From a virus, in IMG/VR virus record IMGVR_UViG_3300048008_000310, positions 1 through 34,613 of that record: a stretch of DNA of 34,613 nt. One strand, given 5' to 3'. Of the stretch, positions 12,298 through 28,917 are shown one piece after another. The notes beneath the pieces were generated by a model. It searched no databases. It saw only the letters and a program-made list of their open reading frames with translations, and was not told the origin of the DNA. Every line of letters starts with the position of its first letter. Within the stretch, counting starts at the first letter, position 1. The position numbers and the translations under genes are program-made.

Positions 12298-15200
12298 ATG
12301 GCTGAAATTAAAAACTCATTTTTAAAGGGCAAGATGAATCAAGATCTTGACTCTAGAATATTACCTAAAGGTGAATATAGGGAGGCCAATAATTTATCCT
12401 TAAGTAGATCAGAAGGATCTGACGTAGGTGCTTTAGAATCAATATTAGGTAATTCTGAAGTTGTTAATGGCAGTGGTAGCAGTAATAAAATAATAGGTCA
12501 TTTCGTAGATGACTCTAGCGGTGACGTTTATTATTTTAGAACAAATTACGACGAATTAGCTCCAGCTCCCAGTAATACTTTACATCAAATATGTGTATAT
12601 AATGCGGTTACTAATACTAATACAGTACTGGTTGAGGGTGCATGGCTTAATTTTTCTGTGCACAATCAAATAATAGGTATAAATTTAGTAGAGGGGCTTT
12701 TGTTTTTTTCAGACAATAGAAACCAACCAAGAAAAATAAATATAAACAATGCTTTAAACAGTATATATTACTACACTAATGAGGATCAAATATCTGTAGC
12801 AAAATTTGCTCCAACGTTTGCCCCTGAGTATATTAATTTAAGAGCTAATTTAACCAACAATTATACTCCAGAATTAACTAACCTACCTTCAACAATGACA
12901 AATGCAGCTGACCTGGAAACAGTACCTGCTGGAATTTATGAGGTAAGTGATTCAAATTTAAGTGTAAAAAAATATGCAAACGGAGATCCTATAACTGAAG
13001 CTCAAACACTAACTGCTTGGAATGCTGCGACTACAGCAGGGGAAGGTTGTTTTGCTTATTACGATAATTATATAGGTAATGAAGTTACATACGGAATTTT
13101 ATATAATAAATATGCTGTAATAGACCCTAGAGGTTTAGCTCCTGTTGGATTTTCTGTGCCAAGCGATGCTGATTGGGCTCAAATTATAAGCACATCAGGT
13201 ACAACTGCTGATTTATATAAAAGTACTAATCTATGGAATTCTGCTACAGGTACAAATGCAAATGGGTTAAATATAAAACCAGCTGGTATTAGAGAAGCTG
13301 GGGTTACAACTGATTTTTCAGAGCTTACAACAGAGACTAGGTTTTGGACTAGTAGCGCTATAGCTTCAGGAGCCGCTTCTTATGTTGCTTTTGATGATAC
13401 AAATGTAATACCAAATACAACTACAGCTAATGTAAACCAGGGATATTCAGTTAGAGTAATAAAAGATAATAATTATAATGGATGGAATGGTGATCCTGAG
13501 TTAATAAAAGATAAATTTGTAAAATTTAGTTACAGGTTTAAATTTGATGATAATGAATATTCTGTTATCGCACCATTTAGCCAAGATGTGTTTATACCAG
13601 AACAACAAGGTGAGTTCATAAATGATGATGAAACAAAAGCTTTTGTTTCTACCGTTGTAGAATTTATGCAAAATTCTGTAAATAATGCAGTACTAAATAT
13701 AAAACTACCTTGTATAGATATTATAAATAAATACAAGATAAAAGGTATAGAAATAATATTTACAGAATCAGACAAGCAAGCATATCAAGTACTAGAAAAA
13801 ATAAAAGTTAATTCAGATTTTATAGCTAGCTTAAACTATACTAATATATATCAATACAGTTATCAGTCAACAAAGCCAATAAATACTTTACCAGCTTTTG
13901 AAACTACAAGAGTATACGATAAAGTTCCAGTTAAAGCTTTAGCTCAAGAATCCGTAGGTAATAGAATATTGTACTCTAATTACCATGAAAGCTACGATGC
14001 TCCTGCTGGATTAGATTACTATGTAAGTGTTGAAGACAAAAGCAATCAACAATTTATAGAATACCCTCAACATTCACTTAAGCAGAATAGAAACTACCAA
14101 GTTGGCGTTGTTTTAGCTGACAAATATGGTAGACAAACAGATGTTATACTATCTAACTACGACGGTCTTTTAGATGTAAACGGAGATCCTCAACCTGGAT
14201 CTAATGTTTATTCTGACTACAATACACTTCAGTTTACAGGAAATGTTGCTAGCTGGCCGGGAGATACGCTAGCTGTTAATTTTGATCACCCAATAAGCAT
14301 AAACAACTACGCACAGCCTAATTATTATTCTGTAGACCTTGATGAAACTACTGGTGCTTTAAATCCTTTCTTTGAAAGTGATAGCTACCAATATTTTACA
14401 TCAACAAGCGCTACTAATTTTTTATCAGTTCTTAGTTATGCCGACGCTACAGATGCTAACAATACATTAAATGTTTTTGTAAACGAAGGCAATGGATGGA
14501 TATTAAAAGAAATAACTACAGACTACACGGCTGTAGATACTTCCGGTAAGGTTCAAATAAATTTTGGAGCTAATATTACGGCTGGCTTTAATGTAAAAAT
14601 AGAAATATTATTTTCTTCAGAAAAACTATATAAATATAGGACAGGTGGTGGAAATACATTAGGGCAAAGACCATTATTTCCTAACTTTCCAACAACATAT
14701 CAAAATTATTTTGCTCCTGGTAAAAAATTATCTGGCCAATATATTGATTATACTGAAATAATTAGTGTTACACCACCTTCAGAAGGAATTATTACATATG
14801 TATCTTTAACTACAAAAGAAGAAGTATCTGTAAGATATTTATTTTCAAATACGTCACAAACAAGACCAGAGCCTGCAATAACGCTAAATACGGTTAAAAC
14901 ATTTGCAACTTATGATATAAATGTAAACGGTTTTTACACTTATAGGCTAGGTGTAAAACAGCAGCAACAAGATTACTATAATGTTTATTTACCTGGAATA
15001 GTAAATGGGTACCCTTTAATAGGTTCTAGTTTAGAGCAGGGTGAAACAGGTTTTATAACGCTAGTGTCTGACAACATAAACAAAGTGCCTAGGAACTTAC
15101 AAGAAGTAGGTCCTTTGCAAAACCAATTTACGTCAGATGAAACAATGTTTCCAAGAGTAGTTAACATGGCTCCTACTGGAACTTCCCCTTATATAACAAG

Positions 15201-17187
15201 AACCAAACAATTTGACCCGTCTAATTCACCTGATTCAGTTGATTTAGTTGGTACAGTGGAAGATATTTTCCCAGGGTTAACCACAGCATCAGGAGGCGGT
15301 GATGTTAATGAATTTGCTGTGTATGATTTTGATACTAAACCTTATATAGCTAAATTATCAACTCAAAAACCAATAGGAATTGTACAGGGTGATTTTGTGC
15401 ACCCAGGAACAGGTTATCCATACCCTGAAAATATGAGTTTAGCTGTTTATGAAACATCACCATCTGTATCTCAACTTGAATTGTTTTATGAAACATCTTC
15501 AGCTCAGTTAATATCTGACTTAAATATAGAAATACAAAATGAAGGTGATGAAATAAACGGGTCTACCTTTGACAGCGTAGCTGTAGCTTTTAGCGAAAAT
15601 GATGCGGTAGGAACTATACTTACTGGAGACTTTTTCCCTACAATTGGAGCGCAAATAGTAACGGATGCTACATGCAGTATTTTAAGCGTTTATTCGGAGG
15701 ACCCTAGTACTCAATCAATAGATACAAACATAAACTATATTACTAGATTTGCTATAGAATCAGGAGCATCTACTGGTAGTGTACGTATAAAAACAGCAGC
15801 AGGAACAAATGATCCTACTGGTTTTTACGCTGGAGGTCCTACTGAAAATTTATACAATGTACAGTATAGGGGTAGATTTCAAATAACACTTAGATGGTCT
15901 AGAGGTGGAGTTGATACTGAAGAAATAATAACTATTCAGTTATCAAACGATGATCCTATAATATATGATATAGCTGAAGCTTCTGAAATATTTCCAGCTA
16001 CCAATCCTCCGGGAGAACAAATAATAATGAAGCAATATCCTATTTTTATTTTTCAACCAGTAGAAGCTATAAGATGTCCTAAAGGTATAAATGGTAGTGC
16101 TGCTGATGCATTTTCTCCTAACCCTTCGGCTGGTAATCGCACTGTTTTTGATACTACAAACTATGGATGGTCTGTAGAAGGAGCTAGATATATAAGTGCT
16201 GATGGAACTACGACTAATTATTATGGCTCATACCCTGGAAACTCGGGATCTACAAATCCTATAACTGATATAGTTTATCAACTAACGTCTTCAGATCAAG
16301 GACATTTCTTTGAGCCTAGTGATGCTAATGTACCTTTAGCTTTAGGTTTTCAATTAAAAGGTAAAGCACTTGCTGTTTCTAATCCAGGGTCTTATGACTA
16401 CTACTTAAAATTAACAGACAACCTAGGAGCATCAACCACCGCTACCACAGGGTATACTATAGGAGGAGCATCTTACTGGGGATGGATCGTAAATGCACCC
16501 TACTCAGCTTCAGCACCTGGAGATACATACAGAGGAAACTCAGATATAACATTAGATACTAGAGACCAAAGCGGATTACCTGTTTGGCAAGGGCAAATAC
16601 AAAACTGGAGTTCTGATGATTTATGGATATGGGCACAGGTTTCAATTCCTACGGTTCAAATTGTAAATTCGAATTACCCAAATACGGTAACAGCATCGGC
16701 GTTTGGGTCAGACGCTGTTTTAGGAACAAACTCAGCAGGCAATATCAGTTCTGGTTATGGCATTGCAAACACTACGGTTACTCATAGTAATAATTATGGC
16801 AACCCTGTTATATTTGGCTCTTGGGTTTTAGTTGCTAAATTAAAAGGATTTAATCCAACAGCTGCTCAAATAACTGCCGGTGTAGTTCCTGGTCAAGAAA
16901 GCCCAGTAGGTTCAAACGAATCCTATGACTGGCGAGAGTGTGCTATAGTAAATGCCACGTTTGAAGTAACTTCTCCATCTAATGATCTTAGTGGAAATAG
17001 CTATGGATTAGTAAACTTAGGCTATATGACTAGTAATAACCCTCCTAATATTTTTTCAGATGTTTTACCTTATAACGCTGAAAATGTTAATCCTCCTTTT
17101 TATCCTCAAAATTCTCCTAATGACGAAAATTTAAAGTATAAGACTGTAGTTGGAGCTAACACTTTTATAGGACCAACAATTCCTTAG
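12298..17187 (+). CDS. Large tail protein, nozzle/propeller-like, with inserted FISUMP domain
   Basis: This 1,629-residue protein begins with a motif (SFLKGKMNQDLDSRILPKGE) and propeller-like blades (HFVDDSSGDVYYFRTN; LLFFSDNRNQPRKININ, about residues 132-148) like those in nozzle proteins of podovirus tails (T7 gp12, P22 gp10). Residues about 222-389 are a FISUMP domain, listed separately. The nozzle-like sequence resumes at about residue 397 (GDPELIKDKFVKFSYRFKF). Residues 722-770 resemble small tail beta modules (VFVNEGNGWILKEITTDYTA). The C-terminal third is long, aromatic and rich in Ser, Thr, Asn and Gly, as in receptor-binding or baseplate proteins. There is no signal peptide. It probably forms the tail tube or hub with exposed adhesion domains. 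The next gene may supply the rest of the nozzle. Tail role is well supported by context; details are inferred. Confidence 0.8.
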   Translation: MAEIKNSFLKGKMNQDLDSRILPKGEYREANNLSLSRSEGSDVGALESILGNSEVVNGSGSSNKIIGHFVDDSSGDVYYFRTNYDELAPAPSNTLHQICVYNAVTNTNTVLVEGAWLNFSVHNQIIGINLVEGLLFFSDNRNQPRKININNALNSIYYYTNEDQISVAKFAPTFAPEYINLRANLTNNYTPELTNLPSTMTNAADLETVPAGIYEVSDSNLSVKKYANGDPITEAQTLTAWNAATTAGEGCFAYYDNYIGNEVTYGILYNKYAVIDPRGLAPVGFSVPSDADWAQIISTSGTTADLYKSTNLWNSATGTNANGLNIKPAGIREAGVTTDFSELTTETRFWTSSAIASGAASYVAFDDTNVIPNTTTANVNQGYSVRVIKDNNYNGWNGDPELIKDKFVKFSYRFKFDDNEYSVIAPFSQDVFIPEQQGEFINDDETKAFVSTVVEFMQNSVNNAVLNIKLPCIDIINKYKIKGIEIIFTESDKQAYQVLEKIKVNSDFIASLNYTNIYQYSYQSTKPINTLPAFETTRVYDKVPVKALAQESVGNRILYSNYHESYDAPAGLDYYVSVEDKSNQQFIEYPQHSLKQNRNYQVGVVLADKYGRQTDVILSNYDGLLDVNGDPQPGSNVYSDYNTLQFTGNVASWPGDTLAVNFDHPISINNYAQPNYYSVDLDETTGALNPFFESDSYQYFTSTSATNFLSVLSYADATDANNTLNVFVNEGNGWILKEITTDYTAVDTSGKVQINFGANITAGFNVKIEILFSSEKLYKYRTGGGNTLGQRPLFPNFPTTYQNYFAPGKKLSGQYIDYTEIISVTPPSEGIITYVSLTTKEEVSVRYLFSNTSQTRPEPAITLNTVKTFATYDINVNGFYTYRLGVKQQQQDYYNVYLPGIVNGYPLIGSSLEQGETGFITLVSDNINKVPRNLQEVGPLQNQFTSDETMFPRVVNMAPTGTSPYITRTKQFDPSNSPDSVDLVGTVEDIFPGLTTASGGGDVNEFAVYDFDTKPYIAKLSTQKPIGIVQGDFVHPGTGYPYPENMSLAVYETSPSVSQLELFYETSSAQLISDLNIEIQNEGDEINGSTFDSVAVAFSENDAVGTILTGDFFPTIGAQIVTDATCSILSVYSEDPSTQSIDTNINYITRFAIESGASTGSVRIKTAAGTNDPTGFYAGGPTENLYNVQYRGRFQITLRWSRGGVDTEEIITIQLSNDDPIIYDIAEASEIFPATNPPGEQIIMKQYPIFIFQPVEAIRCPKGINGSAADAFSPNPSAGNRTVFDTTNYGWSVEGARYISADGTTTNYYGSYPGNSGSTNPITDIVYQLTSSDQGHFFEPSDANVPLALGFQLKGKALAVSNPGSYDYYLKLTDNLGASTTATTGYTIGGASYWGWIVNAPYSASAPGDTYRGNSDITLDTRDQSGLPVWQGQIQNWSSDDLWIWAQVSIPTVQIVNSNYPNTVTASAFGSDAVLGTNSAGNISSGYGIANTTVTHSNNYGNPVIFGSWVLVAKLKGFNPTAAQITAGVVPGQESPVGSNESYDWRECAIVNATFEVTSPSNDLSGNSYGLVNLGYMTSNNPPNIFSDVLPYNAENVNPPFYPQNSPNDENLKYKTVVGANTFIGPTIP
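12961..13464 (+). other. FISUMP (Fib_succ_major) domain inside the tail protein
   Basis: Residues about 222-389 match the Fibrobacter succinogenes major paralogous domain as I know it. The order is KYANGDPI, TAWNAATTAGEGCFAYYDN, YGILYNKYAVIDPRGLAP, GFSVPSDADWAQI, NGLNIKPAGIREAG, RFWTSS and a closing GYSVRVIKD. The family has a C-type-lectin-like fold and is common on the surface of Bacteroidetes and Fibrobacteres. Here it interrupts a tail domain whose sequence continues on both sides, so it looks inserted. A host-surface binding role is inference. Confidence 0.85.
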
Positions 17188-17238: not shown

Positions 17239-18516
17239 ATGGCAGCCACCGTAAAAGTTAAATACTACAATACATACGTTTTAAAAAAAATAAACAGAGG
17301 TGCAGTAGGCATATCTTCATACAACTGGTATGTAGAGGAGTCTAGAATACGCGGAGGCTATAACAACGTTCAAACCGGGTTAGCACCCAGAGCTTTTATA
17401 GTATCAGAGAAGAATAAGCAACAAGTTTTAAGTAACTCTATCATATACTCAGGTGTAATAAACTCAAGAACAGGTATTAATCAAACAAATGTTTTTCCAT
17501 CAGGTGAAGATATTACAAGATCATTAGATCCTTCTAAAGGTAGTGTTCAAAAACTACACGCGGAAGATAACAACTTGATTGTATTTCAAGAAAGAAAAGT
17601 AAATAGAGCTTTGATAGACAAAGACGCTATATACACTCAAGAAGGCATGCCTATACAAACTACCTCTAATGTAGTTATTGGACAAATACAACCATATGCA
17701 GGAGACTTTGGTATATCTAGAAACCCGGAAAGCTTTGCTGTTTACGGTTATCAAAAATACTTTACAGATGCCAACAAAGGAGCTGTACTTAGATTATCTA
17801 TGGATGGTTTAACGGAGATTTCCAATTATGGTATGTATGATTTTTTTAGAGATCAACTATCTTCTATAAACGGAGGTTTTGCTATTGGTGGGTATGATGT
17901 CTACAATAAATGCTATACATTATCTATACAGCCAAATTCTGCTTCTAATGGTTATAAAACATTAAGCTTTGACGAACAAGTTAAAGGCTGGACAAGTTTT
18001 TACGACTATAAGCCATTGCAAATGTTTAGTATACGTAATAACTTTTTTACCACTAACAATGGTAGCTTATATAAGCATTATCAAAATAACATACCTAGAG
18101 GTAATTTTTATGATCAACAGTACAATTCGTCTATAGAAACTATATTCAATGATAACCCCTCACTTGTTAAATCATTTAAAACAATAAACTACGAGGGAAG
18201 TGGCAACTGGGAAATGGCAACATTTGAAACAGATCAAGATACAGCGTCTAGTATATTAAAGTTTACTACGCCTACTACATTGCAAGAGATGCAAGACAGC
18301 TTACTTAGACATGAGTTTAAAAAGAAAGACGGTAAGTATTTTGCCAATATAATAAACGCTAGTGTACCAGAACAAGGCGAGGTATTATACGGTCAATCAA
18401 TATCTGGAGTTAAAGGTTTCTACGGAACAATTAAAATGACCGCAACAAACACAGCAAACACAGGAATAAATGAATTATTTGCAGTATCAACTAATTATTC
18501 AAACGCTTCCTATTAA
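17239..18516 (+). CDS. Tail protein with propeller-like repeats
   Basis: This 425-residue protein starts with a beta-rich segment (SSYNWYVEESRIRGGYNN) and contains a blade-like repeat (YFTDANKGAVLRLSMDGL, about residues 174-191) similar in style to beta-propellers in phage nozzle proteins. Aromatic-rich segments follow (GGYDVYNKCYTLSIQP; VKGWTSFYDYKPLQMFSI). No signal peptide or enzymatic motif is present. It lies 51 bases after the large tail gene behind an A-rich leader and before the internal virion genes. One reading is that this gene and the C-terminally extended upstream gene share the nozzle function held by one longer protein in other podoviruses. Structural tail protein is likely; its exact place is not determined. 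Confidence 0.75.
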   Translation: MAATVKVKYYNTYVLKKINRGAVGISSYNWYVEESRIRGGYNNVQTGLAPRAFIVSEKNKQQVLSNSIIYSGVINSRTGINQTNVFPSGEDITRSLDPSKGSVQKLHAEDNNLIVFQERKVNRALIDKDAIYTQEGMPIQTTSNVVIGQIQPYAGDFGISRNPESFAVYGYQKYFTDANKGAVLRLSMDGLTEISNYGMYDFFRDQLSSINGGFAIGGYDVYNKCYTLSIQPNSASNGYKTLSFDEQVKGWTSFYDYKPLQMFSIRNNFFTTNNGSLYKHYQNNIPRGNFYDQQYNSSIETIFNDNPSLVKSFKTINYEGSGNWEMATFETDQDTASSILKFTTPTTLQEMQDSLLRHEFKKKDGKYFANIINASVPEQGEVLYGQSISGVKGFYGTIKMTATNTANTGINELFAVSTNYSNASY

Positions 18517-20797: not shown

Positions 20798-23700
20798 ATG
20801 CCAGTAAAAAGATATGAAGTTGACGGTAATCCTTATGATGTATCAGAAGCTAAAGAACAAGAATTTTTAAGTAAATTCAATAATGCTGTTCTAATAGGTG
20901 TTTTAGATGAAGACACTAACGAGGTTATAACACAAGACGAACCACAGGATTTTCCAACAAGCACTGTAGAGGATGCGGATGCAGTGCAGCAACCAATGAC
21001 AGCATCACAAGCAGGTTTTACGGAATCACCTTCGGTAAATACTCTTTCGGATTTAGAAGATCCTAAGCCGTTTGTAATAAATGGTAGAGAAGTAACTCAA
21101 CAAGAATTTGAAGATTACAAAAGAGATACTGAAAAAAAAGAAATATACGGGACTTATTTAAAAGAAGACGGAACTACTGGTTACAATGAAAAACCTTACA
21201 GTGTACAGTTGCAAGATTATAAAGGAAGTTTTGAAAGTATATTGAAAGCAGAAGGCGTTTATGAATTTTTAAAAGATTACGATATAGAATACCGCCAAGA
21301 GTTTGCAGCATCTCAATTAGCTAATAAGGTTCCTAGATACACAAGACAGCAATACAATCAATCAACTAATACTTACGATTCAATACCTACAGAAGATGCT
21401 GAAAAACAATTTTCTAAAAATCTGCCGAGTAATTTTGATCTTTTTGATGATAAAAAAGACTTTAATATAGCTTTAGATCAAGGTATACAAAAAACAATTG
21501 CAGAAAACCCACTTATAAACTATCAAATAAAAATAGCTTCTAAAAAAGCTGAACGAGAGTTAAAAGATTATGCTCTTGGTTTAAGAGAAGAATATGATTT
21601 CAACACCCCTGAAGGAATTGCTGACGCTGAAGAAGCATACAATAATAGGTGGAAGGAACTTGTAATAGACCCGGTATCTCAATCTACTGCTTATAAAAAC
21701 ACAGTAAAAGATTTACAATTAGTAGCTAGCAATGTTGCTGAAAAGGAAAATATAAATTTCGGAAGGTATAAGAGTGCTTTTTTAAGCTCTATAGATTTTC
21801 TTGATCAATATGATCCTACTGGTATTCTTTCAAATGTTGTAGAGCCTCTTGTAGGTACAGGTGTGCAAATGAGGGGTGACTTTAATAAAGCAGCGGTATC
21901 AGCTCAGCAAGTAGAAATACAGAATAAGTATGACGAAATAACTAGATTAAAAAATGATGTTGAATCTGGTAAATTAAAGGAAGATGCTAAAGTAATATAT
22001 GGTGGATCTTTTAGTCAAAAAAGCAATACTAGAGTTGGAGGTAAAAGCGGTACTGTAAAAGATAAAATAAAATATCTTGAAGATCAAATTAATTTAACAC
22101 ATGAATCAATTGCTGAAGATATACAAGATGTTATGGACTCTTCTGAATATGGCTCTCTTTTTACTCAAGCAGATTTTTCTGATGGAGTACAATTTAAGGA
22201 CATTGTAAAAACTATATCTGCATCGGCACCTTATATGGCTGTAGCGGCAGGTGGAGCAATGACTGGTAACCCAGTGCTAGCAGGAGCGGGGTTTATGTCT
22301 ATGTTCACTATGGAATACGGGGCTTCTTATATGGGGGCTATAGAGCAGGGTTTAAAAAATGACGGTCTAGAATACAACGAAAAAAACATTATAGAAGCAT
22401 TAAAGGAAGGCAAATACGCTTCTCAAGCGCAAGCTGCTGCTACAGGTGTAGTTTCCGCTAGTCTAGAGCAATTAGGAGCTACTAAAGTTGCTAAAAATAC
22501 AATGAAAGCATTAGGTCTAGGTGGTACTTTAAAAAAATCGCTAGGCTCTTTATATAAAGGCGAGGTAAAACAATTTGTAAAATCTACAGCTAGAGGGTTA
22601 AAACAGCAATCTATAGCAGGTATCGGAGAAGCCGGTACTGAATTAGGTCAAAATTTAGCTTCGCAAATAAGCACAGGAACTCAGCTAGAAGGACTTAGTG
22701 GTATAGGTAAATATATAGATACTGAAGCCAACAGAGAAGCTGCATTAGGTGGAGGTTTGGCAGGATTCTTTATACCTTTTGGGGCAAGCGTAGTGAGACA
22801 ATCTGTTTCAGAATTAAGAAATTCAGCCAGAGATGTAGCTACAAAATTTGATTTAACTAGTAAATTTGGATCAAGTCTTAAAGCTGCTAATAATTTTTTT
22901 AAGGAAGCTGAAAGTAATTTACAGGGAAAGCTGGATAACGGTGAGATCACACAAGAAGAATACAGAAACGAAAGTGAAAACTTAAGTACTATAAGAAATT
23001 CTGGATTAAAAATTCCAAAAACATTTAGTGAATCTGGAAAGAAAAAAGCATTTGACTTAATAATAGAAAAAAATAATATTGAGCAAAATATTGCAAATAA
23101 AGATCCTGAATTAGTAAAAAAAGAAAAAGCTAGGATTAACGAAATAAATGAAGAGTTAAATAATGTTTCCGCAAAAGAGGCATTATTAGCTGAAACAGTT
23201 AAATCTGAAAAAGGTGCGGTTGAAATATTAAAAAGCGTAAAAGGGGCAAATATTGAATTTGCAGATGATCAAGCAACCGTAAACGCGTTAGTAGATAAAA
23301 TTAGAGAAGAAGACGGTAAGAAACCTATTGTAAATTATAGCGATGCTTATGGTCAAACTATAACTAGAAAAGATGGCAGCCAAATAATATTAATAAATAG
23401 AGCAGAAGCTTTCAAGGACGGTGTAGTAAATACAGCTGCTCACGAAGTTTTACATGCTGCTCTAGACCAAACTTTAAAATCCGGTTTATCACCAGAAAAT
23501 CAAATTAGCGTAAGTAATAGTCTTTTTGATTTCATGAAAACTCTTAAAGTAAAAACTGATAACAAGTTTTTGCAAGCAAGGTTGGATCAATATCAAGCAA
23601 AGTACCAACCTAAAATTGATAAGCTAAAAAGCATATCAGAAAGCATGCAAGACCCTAAATTAGCTAAAAAAGCTAACGATAAGGCTATGAAAGCATTGGG

Positions 23701-26700
23701 TAACTTGAGAGAAGAAACCATAACTCTTTTAAGTGAAGCTATGCTGGATGGAGATATTCAGTATAATGAAAATTTAGGAACAAAACTTAAAGATCTTTTT
23801 AGAAGATTATTTAGTAAATTTGGATGGAAAGCTGAATTTAATACAGGAAAAGACGTTTTTAACTTTATTAAAGACTACAATAGAAGTATTAAAAAAGGTA
23901 AAGGACTAAGTAAAGGTCTTGAAAAATCATTACAAGAAGGTATTAAAGGTAAGCTTGTTAACAGTGATTTAAAAGGAACAGGAACTGCCAGCGATAAGCC
24001 TTCGCTATCTCTACAGGAACAATTAGATGATTTAGACTTAAGTGATTTTGATGGGGATGAATATGCGCTTAATAATGCTAAAAGTAATTTAGAGCTAAAA
24101 ATTAGAAAAGCTAAACAAAAAGAAATTTCTAAACCATCTGAATTTAAAGAAAAAGTTAAAATTGATACCAAAAAAAATGAAAAAAGAATTGGTGATCAGT
24201 TAAAAGAAATGGTACCTACAGGTACAACTAATAAAGAATTTAAAGAAAAGGTAGCGATAAAAGTTATAGACAACATTGATAGAGGTATGCTTAATCCTTT
24301 AATTAAAAAGATCGCTGCAGGCTATGGCGTTGTTGCTGACAATGTATACGGTAAAAGCTGGGATGATTTTTTTATAGAAGTAGGTGGTGTTCAATTAAAG
24401 AAAAACATAATGAATTTTAATCCTGAATCAAACAATGATTTAGGTGGATATATAATAGGTAGTCAATACGGTGTAAGAAACAGAGTGAAAGAAGCTTTAG
24501 CTAAATTTAAAAAAGAAGGCGAGGGTGGATTTAAAGAGGACGTTAGTGTGGCTAAAAACATTATAGCCAGAGAAGATGCTACCCCTCAAGAGGCTGAGAA
24601 AAGAAAATATACACCACTTACTAAAAGCAATGTGGTTCCTAATTTTACTTTAACAGGCATTACAGATAAGTTGACTACTGTGTTATCAGGTCTTACAAGT
24701 AAGATGACAGATAAAAGAGGTGACAATTCTTCCACTACTCCTTTAGTTGCTGAAATAAAAAAGAAAATAGGAAAAGTTGTAGGTGATCCTGAAGCTGCAC
24801 CTAAGATTGTTATACAAAGACTAGGTAAATTAAAAGATGGAACTTATGAAAAAAATCTTATAAAAAATAAGAAAGCTATCATAGAGAACATGACCACCAC
24901 TTTTTTAATGGGTAAAGATAGCGGTAGTAAAGTTAGCGGAGGTATTCCTCAAGCGATTGAAAAATCAGTTGGCGGTAAATTTACTGGTAAAAAAGTAACT
25001 GTAAATGTTGGTGGTAAAGAAATAGTTCAAGAAGAATTTGCGCCAAACTTTGTACCATATCCAGAATGGGTTGGTCAAAAGATTGATCGTGAAAAAACAT
25101 TAGTAAGAGGCGCTACGGCTGGTAATGAAATAGTTAGAAGAGTATCTGCTGATAAAGTTTCAGACTCTGACTTTGTAGGATTGTTTATTGATGAGAAAGG
25201 TAAACTAATTAGAGGTAAAAGAGAAGCTTTGGGTAAAGCTTTAGCTGAGGAAATGGCTTTTGAAATATTTTCTAGAGAAATTCAAAATGAAAACTCAGAA
25301 ATAAGTAAAGCTTTTGAAAGCAATCAAGAAGCTTTAGGGGAAATTCTTAGCGATAATTTTGTTAATGAATTACAAAGAGACTTAGATAGAGGTACTGTAA
25401 AGTATTCATTGAAAATTGAAGATATAAAAAATATAGAAAAAATTGCAATAAAAGAAGGTCTTACTTCTGAAAAGATTAAAGATATAGCCATTGCAAATAA
25501 AATACCTGTAAATATAATTGAGGGAGTATTAGAAGATATTATACATGAAGGGGTGCTCCAAAGAATGCAAGAAACTAAAGCATCTAACGAAGGCTTAAAA
25601 TATGAGCAAGCACTAAAAAAGGTTTTAAACAAATATACTAGCGGTGATATAAAAATTAAGTTAATAAAATCTCAAAAGGGGGATATTGTAATTAACGCAA
25701 ATGGTAAAGACTATAAAGTGGAAGTTAAGCTAAACGATAAAGCTCAAATAGGTAGCATATCTACTGGTTTATTTCAAACAAAAAACAGTAAAATATCTTT
25801 AATAAACTCTGACAATTTAAAAATAAATAATAAATTAAGCGAGGATAATAAAAAAGAATTTATAGATTTTTTAAGCAAAAATAAAAAGTACTTAAATAGC
25901 TTAATTAATGCCGTTAATAAAGCTAATTCAAAATCAAATGAAAAAGCTTTTATAAATCAAAAAGGCCACCTAGAGTTACCTTACAAAGAATTTTGGAAAA
26001 ATATAAAAGATGAAATGCCTGGTAAAATAGCTGGATATGTTAGCTATGAAGGAAATCAATCTATTGTAGAAGATTTTTATAAAGGAATAGACTTAATGCA
26101 AATTGGAGGATATGGAGCTTTTGCTATAGGTAATAAAAGTAAGCTTTCTGGTTTTTATCAAAAATTAGAGGCTACTACAAATAATGTATTAAGACCCGTA
26201 AGATCTACCACTACCATATACATGAGGTTGTTTCCAAATTTCAAAGAAATAAAAAACCCTAAAAGTAATTCATTAGCTACAGCTAAAGGTATAATGACTT
26301 TAACTAAATCTGTTAGAGCTGCAACAGAGTTAGATAACATGAAACCTAGTTTGAAGTTGGATAAAAGCTTTAATAAAATGCTAGAAAGAAGTACAGGTAT
26401 TAAAGCAAATGAAACTATAAGCAAAGTAATAGCTAGAAGAAAAGGTGTAGGTAAAAGTAAATTTAAAGTTTTTATGCCTTCTTCATTAGATGATTTTAAA
26501 GGATTGACTTCTTATACTTTTGCAGGTAAAGGTAAGCAAGGTGAAGCTGATCAAAAGTTTTTTCAAGATAACTTAATAGATCCGTACTTTAAAGGCATAA
26601 GAGCTATTGAGGAAACTAGACAGTCGTTTAAGGACGATTTTAAGACGCTTAATAAACAAATGAGACCTGTTATAAAGAAACTTGGTAAACTTGTGCCAGG

Positions 26701-28561
26701 GACTGAATTTACACATGATCAAGCTATAAGAGTTGCTCTATGGAATGCTTCTGGATATGAAATACCAGGTTTATCTGAAATAGATCAGAAAAAATTAGTT
26801 GATTATGTAAACGACAATGCAGACTTAAGTGAGTATGCTAGAAAGTTACAACAAATATCAAAAAGACCTAAATGGGCTAAGCCCGGGGATTTTTGGGATG
26901 CTGAAACTATACTATCTGACTTAAATAACTTAACTGAAAAAATAGGTAGAAAAGAATTCTTATCAGAATTTATTGAAAATGCAGATGTGATATTCAGTGA
27001 AGACAATCTTAACAAAGTAGAAGCTGGTTATGGTAAAGCTACTAGAGATGCATTGGAAGATATTTTATACAGAATGAAGAACGGTACAAACAGGCCTTCA
27101 TCCACTACTGATAATACTAATAGATTTAATACTTGGATTAACAATTCTATTGGGGCAATAATGTTTTTCAATAGAAGATCAGCATTACTACAAACATTGT
27201 CGACAGTAAACTTTATTAATTGGTCAGATAATAACCCTTTAAAAGCAGCAATAGCATTTGCTAATCAAAAACAATACTGGTCTGATTTTGCAACACTCTT
27301 TAATTCTCCTAAACTTAAACAAAGAAGATCTGGTTTGAAAAGTGATGTTAATGAAGCTGAGATTGCAAGAGCGGTTAAAGGATCTAAGAACAAAGCAGTA
27401 GCTGCATTAAGTTATTTATTAAAAATTGGTTTTACGCCAACACAAATGGCAGATAGTTTTGCTATAGCTTCAGGTGGCGCTACATTTTATAGGAATAGAA
27501 TAAAATCTTATTTGAAAAAAGTAAACGAAGAAGGAGAAGCTTTATATACTAAAGAGCAAGCGGAAGAAATGGCTTTTAAAGATTTTAGTCAAATATCTGA
27601 AGAAACTCAGCAATCTGGGGACCCTGCTTTAATATCTTCTGATCAGGCGAGTATAGTGGGTAGAGTATTACTTGCGTTTCAAAATACACCTATACAGTTA
27701 AATAGGTCTATAAAGAAAGCTGCTTTAGATATAAAAAACAGAAGAAGAACACCTGGGCAGACTATGACGCAGAGTGATTTTTCCAACTTAAGTAAAATTA
27801 TATATTATGGCACTGTTCAAAACATCATATTCTCCGCATTGCAAAATGCTTTATTTGCTTTAATACCAGGATTTGAAGATGAGGATGATGAGCTTACTGA
27901 AGAAGAGCAGCTAAAAAAGTATGGAAAAGTGTATAGCACAAAGCAAGGTAGAATAATAAATGGAATGATTGATACTACTTTAAAAGGAGGTTTTGGATTA
28001 CCTGGTGCTTTCATATCTACCATTAAAAATGCTTATCAAGAATATGACAAACAGGAGAAAAAGAAATTTATGGCTGATCATACTTATACTATATTGGCTT
28101 TAGCAAATTTATCTCCATCTATTGGATCAAAACTTAGAAAAGTTTACAGCGGTATTCAAACAAAGAAATTTGAAAAAGATGTTATTGAAAAAAGAGATTG
28201 GGATATTACTATAGATGGTAAATTTAATTTAAGTCCATCATATAAAGTACTAGGATCAGTAACTGAAGGTATCACAAACTTACCTTTAGATAGAGCTGTA
28301 ACAGAAGTGAATGCTTTAACTGAAGCCTTAGATTATAGAAACACTGTTTGGCAAAGGGTAGCTCTTGCTTTAGGTTGGAGATCTTGGGATGTTGGTGCAG
28401 AGAATGAAGAACACGAACTTATAAAAACTGAAGCTAAAGCTAGAAGAAAAGAAGAAGGTAAAGAGAAAGCAAAGGCGACTAGAGCAGAAAATAAAAAAGA
28501 AAAAGAAAGAGAGGCTAATTTAAAGCAATATCAAAGAATTATGAAATCTAGAGAAAAATGA
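20798..28561 (+). CDS. Giant internal virion protein with zincin motif and possible nuclease domain
   Basis: This 2,587-residue protein starts with MPVKRYEVDGNPYDVSEAKE, a form common in large phage virion proteins. Residues about 474-516 are hydrophobic and Gly/Ala-rich (SAPYMAVAAGGAMTGNP, then FMSMFTMEYGASYM), followed by LGGGLAGFFIPFGASVV at about 650-667; both fit membrane or channel segments. H882-E883-x-x-H886 (TAAHEVLHAALD) is a zinc-metalloprotease signature. D1629 and E1642-x-K1644 (GDIVINANGKDYKVEVKL) have the spacing of a PD-(D/E)XK nuclease. The C-terminal part is helical, with a hydrophobic segment at about 2334-2359, and ends in a charged coiled coil. Size and position correspond to T7 gp16-like ejected proteins. 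The endolysin start overlaps its stop by four bases. Virion role is likely; protease and nuclease activities are inferred from short motifs. Confidence 0.75.
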   Translation: MPVKRYEVDGNPYDVSEAKEQEFLSKFNNAVLIGVLDEDTNEVITQDEPQDFPTSTVEDADAVQQPMTASQAGFTESPSVNTLSDLEDPKPFVINGREVTQQEFEDYKRDTEKKEIYGTYLKEDGTTGYNEKPYSVQLQDYKGSFESILKAEGVYEFLKDYDIEYRQEFAASQLANKVPRYTRQQYNQSTNTYDSIPTEDAEKQFSKNLPSNFDLFDDKKDFNIALDQGIQKTIAENPLINYQIKIASKKAERELKDYALGLREEYDFNTPEGIADAEEAYNNRWKELVIDPVSQSTAYKNTVKDLQLVASNVAEKENINFGRYKSAFLSSIDFLDQYDPTGILSNVVEPLVGTGVQMRGDFNKAAVSAQQVEIQNKYDEITRLKNDVESGKLKEDAKVIYGGSFSQKSNTRVGGKSGTVKDKIKYLEDQINLTHESIAEDIQDVMDSSEYGSLFTQADFSDGVQFKDIVKTISASAPYMAVAAGGAMTGNPVLAGAGFMSMFTMEYGASYMGAIEQGLKNDGLEYNEKNIIEALKEGKYASQAQAAATGVVSASLEQLGATKVAKNTMKALGLGGTLKKSLGSLYKGEVKQFVKSTARGLKQQSIAGIGEAGTELGQNLASQISTGTQLEGLSGIGKYIDTEANREAALGGGLAGFFIPFGASVVRQSVSELRNSARDVATKFDLTSKFGSSLKAANNFFKEAESNLQGKLDNGEITQEEYRNESENLSTIRNSGLKIPKTFSESGKKKAFDLIIEKNNIEQNIANKDPELVKKEKARINEINEELNNVSAKEALLAETVKSEKGAVEILKSVKGANIEFADDQATVNALVDKIREEDGKKPIVNYSDAYGQTITRKDGSQIILINRAEAFKDGVVNTAAHEVLHAALDQTLKSGLSPENQISVSNSLFDFMKTLKVKTDNKFLQARLDQYQAKYQPKIDKLKSISESMQDPKLAKKANDKAMKALGNLREETITLLSEAMLDGDIQYNENLGTKLKDLFRRLFSKFGWKAEFNTGKDVFNFIKDYNRSIKKGKGLSKGLEKSLQEGIKGKLVNSDLKGTGTASDKPSLSLQEQLDDLDLSDFDGDEYALNNAKSNLELKIRKAKQKEISKPSEFKEKVKIDTKKNEKRIGDQLKEMVPTGTTNKEFKEKVAIKVIDNIDRGMLNPLIKKIAAGYGVVADNVYGKSWDDFFIEVGGVQLKKNIMNFNPESNNDLGGYIIGSQYGVRNRVKEALAKFKKEGEGGFKEDVSVAKNIIAREDATPQEAEKRKYTPLTKSNVVPNFTLTGITDKLTTVLSGLTSKMTDKRGDNSSTTPLVAEIKKKIGKVVGDPEAAPKIVIQRLGKLKDGTYEKNLIKNKKAIIENMTTTFLMGKDSGSKVSGGIPQAIEKSVGGKFTGKKVTVNVGGKEIVQEEFAPNFVPYPEWVGQKIDREKTLVRGATAGNEIVRRVSADKVSDSDFVGLFIDEKGKLIRGKREALGKALAEEMAFEIFSREIQNENSEISKAFESNQEALGEILSDNFVNELQRDLDRGTVKYSLKIEDIKNIEKIAIKEGLTSEKIKDIAIANKIPVNIIEGVLEDIIHEGVLQRMQETKASNEGLKYEQALKKVLNKYTSGDIKIKLIKSQKGDIVINANGKDYKVEVKLNDKAQIGSISTGLFQTKNSKISLINSDNLKINNKLSEDNKKEFIDFLSKNKKYLNSLINAVNKANSKSNEKAFINQKGHLELPYKEFWKNIKDEMPGKIAGYVSYEGNQSIVEDFYKGIDLMQIGGYGAFAIGNKSKLSGFYQKLEATTNNVLRPVRSTTTIYMRLFPNFKEIKNPKSNSLATAKGIMTLTKSVRAATELDNMKPSLKLDKSFNKMLERSTGIKANETISKVIARRKGVGKSKFKVFMPSSLDDFKGLTSYTFAGKGKQGEADQKFFQDNLIDPYFKGIRAIEETRQSFKDDFKTLNKQMRPVIKKLGKLVPGTEFTHDQAIRVALWNASGYEIPGLSEIDQKKLVDYVNDNADLSEYARKLQQISKRPKWAKPGDFWDAETILSDLNNLTEKIGRKEFLSEFIENADVIFSEDNLNKVEAGYGKATRDALEDILYRMKNGTNRPSSTTDNTNRFNTWINNSIGAIMFFNRRSALLQTLSTVNFINWSDNNPLKAAIAFANQKQYWSDFATLFNSPKLKQRRSGLKSDVNEAEIARAVKGSKNKAVAALSYLLKIGFTPTQMADSFAIASGGATFYRNRIKSYLKKVNEEGEALYTKEQAEEMAFKDFSQISEETQQSGDPALISSDQASIVGRVLLAFQNTPIQLNRSIKKAALDIKNRRRTPGQTMTQSDFSNLSKIIYYGTVQNIIFSALQNALFALIPGFEDEDDELTEEEQLKKYGKVYSTKQGRIINGMIDTTLKGGFGLPGAFISTIKNAYQEYDKQEKKKFMADHTYTILALANLSPSIGSKLRKVYSGIQTKKFEKDVIEKRDWDITIDGKFNLSPSYKVLGSVTEGITNLPLDRAVTEVNALTEALDYRNTVWQRVALALGWRSWDVGAENEEHELIKTEAKARRKEEGKEKAKATRAENKKEKEREANLKQYQRIMKSREK

Positions 28562-28917
28562 AATTAAAATACTTTACATACGAAGAGTTTGATTCGCCTG
28601 ATGTTCAAGGGAGCGGTCAATTAATGAATGAAGAGTTACTTAACATGCTCGATGTTGTTAGAAAAAAATACGGTAAATCTATTGTTATTAACTCAGGTTA
28701 CAGAACTGTAAAACATAACGCTAAAGTAGGTGGAACTCCTGAATCATCTCACACAAAAGGTTTAGCGGTTGACATTGCATGTAATAATTCTACTGACAGA
28801 TTTAAATTAGAAGGTATATTAAGAGAAGTTGGATTTAAAAGAATTGGTATTGCTAAAACTTTTATTCACGCTGATATAGATAAAGATAAAGCACAAAACG
28901 TATTATGGACTTATTAA
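28558..28917 (+). CDS. M15-family peptidase, probable endolysin
   Basis: This 119-residue protein carries the metal-binding pattern of M15A (D-Ala-D-Ala carboxypeptidase/L-Ala-D-Glu-type) peptidases: SSHTKGLAVDI gives H65 and D72, and FIHADID gives H104. The preceding NSGYRT block (residues 45-50) is typical of the fold. It would cleave peptides in peptidoglycan, releasing progeny, or act as a virion-linked lysin during entry. There is no signal peptide, so export at lysis would need a holin, which I do not recognise in this window. Its start overlaps the stop of the giant virion gene (ATGA), so translation is probably coupled. Length matches other small phage M15 enzymes. The call is confident; the lysis role is from context. 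Confidence 0.92.
   Translation: MKLKYFTYEEFDSPDVQGSGQLMNEELLNMLDVVRKKYGKSIVINSGYRTVKHNAKVGGTPESSHTKGLAVDIACNNSTDRFKLEGILREVGFKRIGIAKTFIHADIDKDKAQNVLWTY

Follow-up and report, generated by a model that had tools for sequence, protein, structure and literature searches.

A FISUMP domain inserted into the two-gene muzzle of a phi38:1-like podovirus

The window, which is the whole stretch of 34,613 nt analysed here and to whose positions all coordinates refer unless a relative is named, contains an intact open reading frame (ORF) of 1629 codons at 12298-17187, which encodes muzzle or nozzle chain A. It is followed by a separate gene for the 425-amino-acid muzzle chain B (17239-18516); both genes and all features described within them lie on the plus strand. 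From the N- to the C-terminus, chain A consists of propeller blades, a domain resembling the immunoglobulin-like domain IG1 of the PhicrAss001 muzzle, which appears to carry a FISUMP domain (residues 205-392, 12910-13473), and an IG2-like domain with further distal domains. The genes for terminase, portal, capsid-region proteins, small structural proteins and chain A are arranged as in the Cellulophaga phage phi38:1 (Pervagoviridae) and the Flavobacterium elemo phages, and the virus belongs to a large marine group whose hosts are probably flavobacteria. Further downstream, an ORF of 2587 amino acids (20798-28561), which has no Pfam match, occupies the position of phi38:1 gp101 and is followed by a gene for a small M15 peptidase (28558-28917).

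Chain A is a podovirus nozzle or muzzle protein related to the muzzle of PhicrAss001 and to gp97 of phi38:1, an identity that rests on its relatives and on profile and structure comparisons. It was assigned to phrog_14478, a family of virion structural proteins in PHROGs, and its residues 1-153 align with residues 1-152 of the PhicrAss001 muzzle gp44 in a profile comparison with hhalign (E 1.5e-5). The Pfam muzzle family PF25731 is matched by 22 of the 42 aligned relatives of chain A (best 6.5e-14); in the window's own chain A, PF09603 is the sole Pfam family found and a muzzle match is absent. An AlphaFold2 model of residues 1-649, which is of moderate confidence (mean pLDDT 65, pTM 0.45), has chain 7qol_P, the PhicrAss001 muzzle, as its best solved match (Z 9.7, 229 residues), and the same muzzle ranks first in Foldseek, with a weak E of 8e-3. 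In this model, the propeller matches bring together segments from about residue 51 onwards and up to about residue 568, which gives FISUMP and the IG1-like part the appearance of a lateral insert within the propeller. The flank preceding the insertion (residues 1-172, 12298-12813) comprises the ring-joining part and propeller blades 1 and 2, is propeller-like in the model and is kept in relatives with and without FISUMP. The flank following it (residues 396-640, 13483-14217) contains the rest of the IG1-like domain, the return to propeller blade 3 and the start of the IG2-like domain. Both flanks align with FISUMP-free relatives, which agrees with the initial annotation, where a nozzle-like tail sequence was described on both sides of the domain.

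The C-terminal half of the propeller is encoded by the chain B gene. Chain B matches PF25729 (crAss_MUZ_C, E=3.7e-15) and PF25731 (crAss_MUZ, positions 1050-1223, E=1.2e-12), both above the Pfam cut-off, and aligns with gp44 residues 1034-1304 in hhalign (E 6.1e-9). Its model, which is weak (mean pLDDT 54), resembles residues 1075-1371 of 7qol_P (Z 10.9) and the nozzles of phages Pa223, GP4 and VP1; the top Foldseek matches are the tails of phages Pa223, SU10 and VP1. Chain B is a separate ORF in the window and in all environmental relatives with downstream sequence (52/52), whereas a single ORF spans both muzzle halves in phi38:1 and elemoF. Assembly of the propeller may involve two chains. 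A general mechanism that joins both muzzle genes by read-through or a frameshift was rejected because their frame offset varies (0, 1 or 2) among relatives; in some of these, for example L065, a single in-frame stop lies between the two genes. In the Manatee Spring phage (L075, MW202828.1, 13665-15021), a gene annotated as putative glycosidase is located between the muzzle ORF and a further ORF with the last muzzle part. Interrupted muzzle ORFs were also seen in single relatives (L006, 10938-12208; L052, 5998-11025; L031, 5998-8577) and might reflect frameshifts, stops or assembly errors.

The FISUMP domain, which is otherwise known from surface proteins of bacteria and had been proposed in the initial annotation, is confirmed by two profiles. 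Residues 219-389 of chain A (12952-13464) match PF09603 (Fib_succ_major) with an E of 1.7e-21 and 77.8 bits (cut-off 33.9) over positions 11-187 of the 187 profile positions, and TIGR02145 of NCBIfam is matched with 51.6 and 56.6 bits (cut-off 41.65). The span of 12961-13464 given at that time is exact at its end and starts three codons late. In the model, the domain is slightly wider than the Pfam match, extending from about residue 205 to about residue 392, and is mostly modelled at a pLDDT of about 66-90. Core motifs common to this domain and bacterial members of the family are Asn-Leu, Asn-Gly, Tyr-Gly-x-Leu-Tyr-Asn, Arg-Gly-Leu-x-Pro-x-Gly, Trp and Ser-Val-Arg. The order of strands and helices is compatible with, rather than independent proof of, a C-type-lectin fold. 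Among the matches listed in fold searches with the 649-residue model, all were propellers and none was a solved C-type-lectin structure, which says nothing against this fold. When the PDB was searched by sequence, no meaningful relative emerged for the domain, the full-length protein or the profiles, and weak matches to a designed propeller, a xylanase and alphavirus E1 were taken as chance. PF09603 is matched by 30 of the 42 aligned relatives of chain A, the remaining 12 having other inserts or an empty site, and a FISUMP match was also found in the unannotated 5.5 kb INPHARED record MT838249.

The site at which FISUMP is inserted differs in content between relatives. In the cultured phages phi38:1, elemoF, Manatee Spring phage and Panino, the flanks nearly meet and the insert is absent, and the site is nearly empty in L070, too. 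In a sister group (L054-L069 and L071-L072), unrelated inserts of roughly 70-190 residues are found at the FISUMP site. Most of these alternative inserts received no identification by Pfam or PHROGs; the insert of L064 resembles a phage structural-protein module (phrog_697, E 1.1e-3). A second, phrog_697-like module of about 75 residues (E 5.3e-7) is nested inside the FISUMP domain of L036, L037 and L045. FISUMP is separable, because the site is near-empty in cultured relatives and holds other modules in the sister group, and relatives without the domain or with other inserts rule out that it is an ordinary part of the tail fold. The earlier suggestion of a separate domain has thus withstood the comparison with relatives, in which the segment is absent or replaced.

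The insertion lies between propeller blades 2 and 3, where PhicrAss001 has IG1. In PhicrAss001 gp44, IG1 (163-292) is inserted between these blades and IG2 into blade 3, and muzzle length was reported to vary through insertions that affect the crass and IG2 domains but not IG1 (PMC10172136). Alignment across the empty site suggests that FISUMP is located within the IG1-like domain rather than just before it. Chain A and chain B together resemble gp44 (PMC10172136; PDB 7QOK, 7QOL) in having an N-terminal ring-joining and propeller part, a domain inserted between blades 2 and 3 and a C-terminal propeller half. However, gp44 is a single chain and possesses only the immunoglobulin-like IG1 at this site, whereas FISUMP is added in or next to IG1 here and the muzzle is encoded by two genes. 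The virion structural protein gp97 of phi38:1 and gp22 of Flavobacterium phage elemoF share the gene order and the flanks (28-34% identity), but lack the insert.

Viral contigs were scanned with the FISUMP profile, which yielded 123 relatives, 80 of which were kept. At all 80 loci the domain is part of the muzzle protein. The flank behind the domain is present wherever the contig extends that far, and the flank ahead of it in all loci except L158, whose ORF starts shortly before the domain. In a tree based on the flanks only, the 34 FISUMP-bearing rows form one group (support 99/100). In a tree of the domain itself, the 31 phage sequences are separated by a long stem from 27 bacterial ones (support 100/100), the latter being a small and biased sample for which seven genomes were searched. 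Since FISUMP carriers form one clade both by their flanks and by the domain, these trees indicate that FISUMP was gained once in this clade. The nearest bacterial domains (28-42% identity) are found in Flavobacteriales, other Bacteroidota, Calditrichota, Neomarinimicrobiota and a bin labelled Bdellovibrio. A domain with 47% identity (L078), encoded on the Flavobacteriaceae MAG contig CALKFR010000081.1, is itself part of a phage muzzle with FISUMP at the same site; this contig could represent a prophage or phage DNA that was binned together with the bacterium, and it provides a hint to the host. As the outgroups have an empty site, the gain is most simply explained by capture from a bacterium, and the donor most likely belonged to the Bacteroidota/FCB. 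The view of FISUMP as a domain common to Bacteroidota/FCB proteins that was acquired by the phage is thereby supported, with a single acquisition.

Phage and bacterial FISUMP domains differ in their cysteines. A C-terminal cysteine is present in 25 of 27 bacterial versus 4 of 31 phage domains, and a cysteine preceding a proline in 12 of 27 versus none of 31. One other cysteine is kept in 30 of the 31 phage domains and absent in that of the window. The loss of the bacterial cysteines would fit the folding of a virion protein inside the cytoplasm. Over 13 close pairs, the dN/dS of FISUMP ranges from 0.06 to 0.27, which indicates purifying selection and is similar to that of the rest of the protein, except for the very conserved region behind the insert. 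In most of these pairs, the domains are 89-99% identical with a dN/dS of 0.06-0.21, and no hypervariable patch is evident. FISUMP is not rapidly diversified; it is stable and vertically inherited. Between distant members, the mean identity of FISUMP is 42%, compared to 63% and 73% for the flanks. The C-terminal part of chain A (residues 1251-1629, 16048-17184) diverges far more, with a mean identity of 14% between distant members, a value lowered by truncated contigs, and is a better candidate for host specificity.

On balance, FISUMP was most likely captured once, into a muzzle loop of a phi38:1-like marine podovirus, and it is moderately likely to act in adhesion, as a conserved domain close to the tail gate. 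As known from PhicrAss001 and T7, a muzzle hexamer would close the tail, and six FISUMP domains would project sideways from the level of the propeller and IG1 near the tail tip. This outward projection is drawn by analogy, the muzzle model being of the moderate confidence given above. The domains would then grip a glycan or protein of the host surface, the candidate ligands, and this grip would keep the muzzle in place at the outer membrane until opening. Finer discrimination between hosts would probably be provided elsewhere, for instance by fibres or by the variable C-terminal part of the muzzle. However, the strong conservation and single vertical inheritance of FISUMP also fit a structural or decoration role, in which the domain would stabilise the muzzle or fill the space between subunits or fibre hubs without binding the host. 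Such a role is possible, if rather doubtful. It is in line with the low dN/dS and the fixed position of FISUMP, with some sister phages that fill the slot with a beta module of a type known from phage structural proteins (phrog_697, baseplate families), and with cultured relatives that manage with no module at the site. Against it, a binding role is presumed for the lipoproteins and DGR target proteins in which FISUMP is found elsewhere (PMC4159848, PMC8143477), and the loop indels and an identity below that of the flanks (42% versus 63% and 73%) suggest an exposed surface.

The initial annotation had suggested that FISUMP may set host range. That it is the main determinant of host range, varying by ordinary substitution or domain exchange, is unlikely, even though it sits in a tail protein, is more divergent than the flanks between distant members, and FISUMP/DUF1566 domains have been proposed to determine tropism in Bacuni phages (PMC8143477). 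In close pairs, purifying selection acts on FISUMP as it does on the remainder of the protein, FISUMP represents one vertical lineage, and residues 1251-1629 are far more divergent than FISUMP (14%, lowered by truncated contigs, versus 42% mean identity). Although FISUMP is a known DGR target domain (PMC4159848, PMC8143477), it is extremely improbable that it serves as one here, as it does in the Bacuni phages of Bacteroides uniformis, and the retroelement diversification considered earlier was rejected for several reasons: neither the window nor 15 relatives of 50-68 kb, all of them virus contigs and potentially incomplete, yielded a reverse transcriptase (RVT_1), the window contains no template-like near repeat, dN/dS is low, no hypervariable patch is evident in close pairs, and the domain is internal rather than C-terminal.

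With adhesion near the tail gate as the preferred reading, it is tempting to speculate further that the muzzle loop linking blades 2 and 3 serves generally for docking, that Bacteroidota phages load exchangeable, even host-derived, surface domains onto it, and that six copies of the bacterial FISUMP form a conserved host grip on a two-protein propeller muzzle in this clade; this wider proposal is tentative. In a widespread type of Bacteroidota phage, the muzzle forms the gate that is opened at infection, and a series found in nature at a single position, from an empty site through a generic module to FISUMP, offers a direct test of what a side domain does on this gate. In addition, the stability of FISUMP revises the assumption that retroelement-driven variation is what C-type-lectin-like domains serve in phages of Bacteroidota hosts.

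Use of FISUMP by phages for host contact has a precedent in the DGR-bearing Bacuni phages (PMC8143477), and FISUMP has been listed among DGR targets (PMC4159848). As in the window, the domain of the Bacuni targets is part of a phage protein that probably contacts the host; however, it forms the C-terminal variable part of fimbrial-tip-like proteins and is diversified by a reverse transcriptase, whereas it is internal in a nozzle and undiversified here (PMC8143477). A literature search found no paper that pairs the name 'FISUMP' with 'phage', but papers using the name Fib_succ_major do so. FISUMP in viral proteins is furthermore known from database annotation of the uncultured Caudovirales proteins A0A6J5LVS1 and A0A6J5N676 ('Fibrobacter succinogenes major paralogous domain'), the former of which was matched over 182 columns with an rmsd of 2.7 Å and 35% identity.
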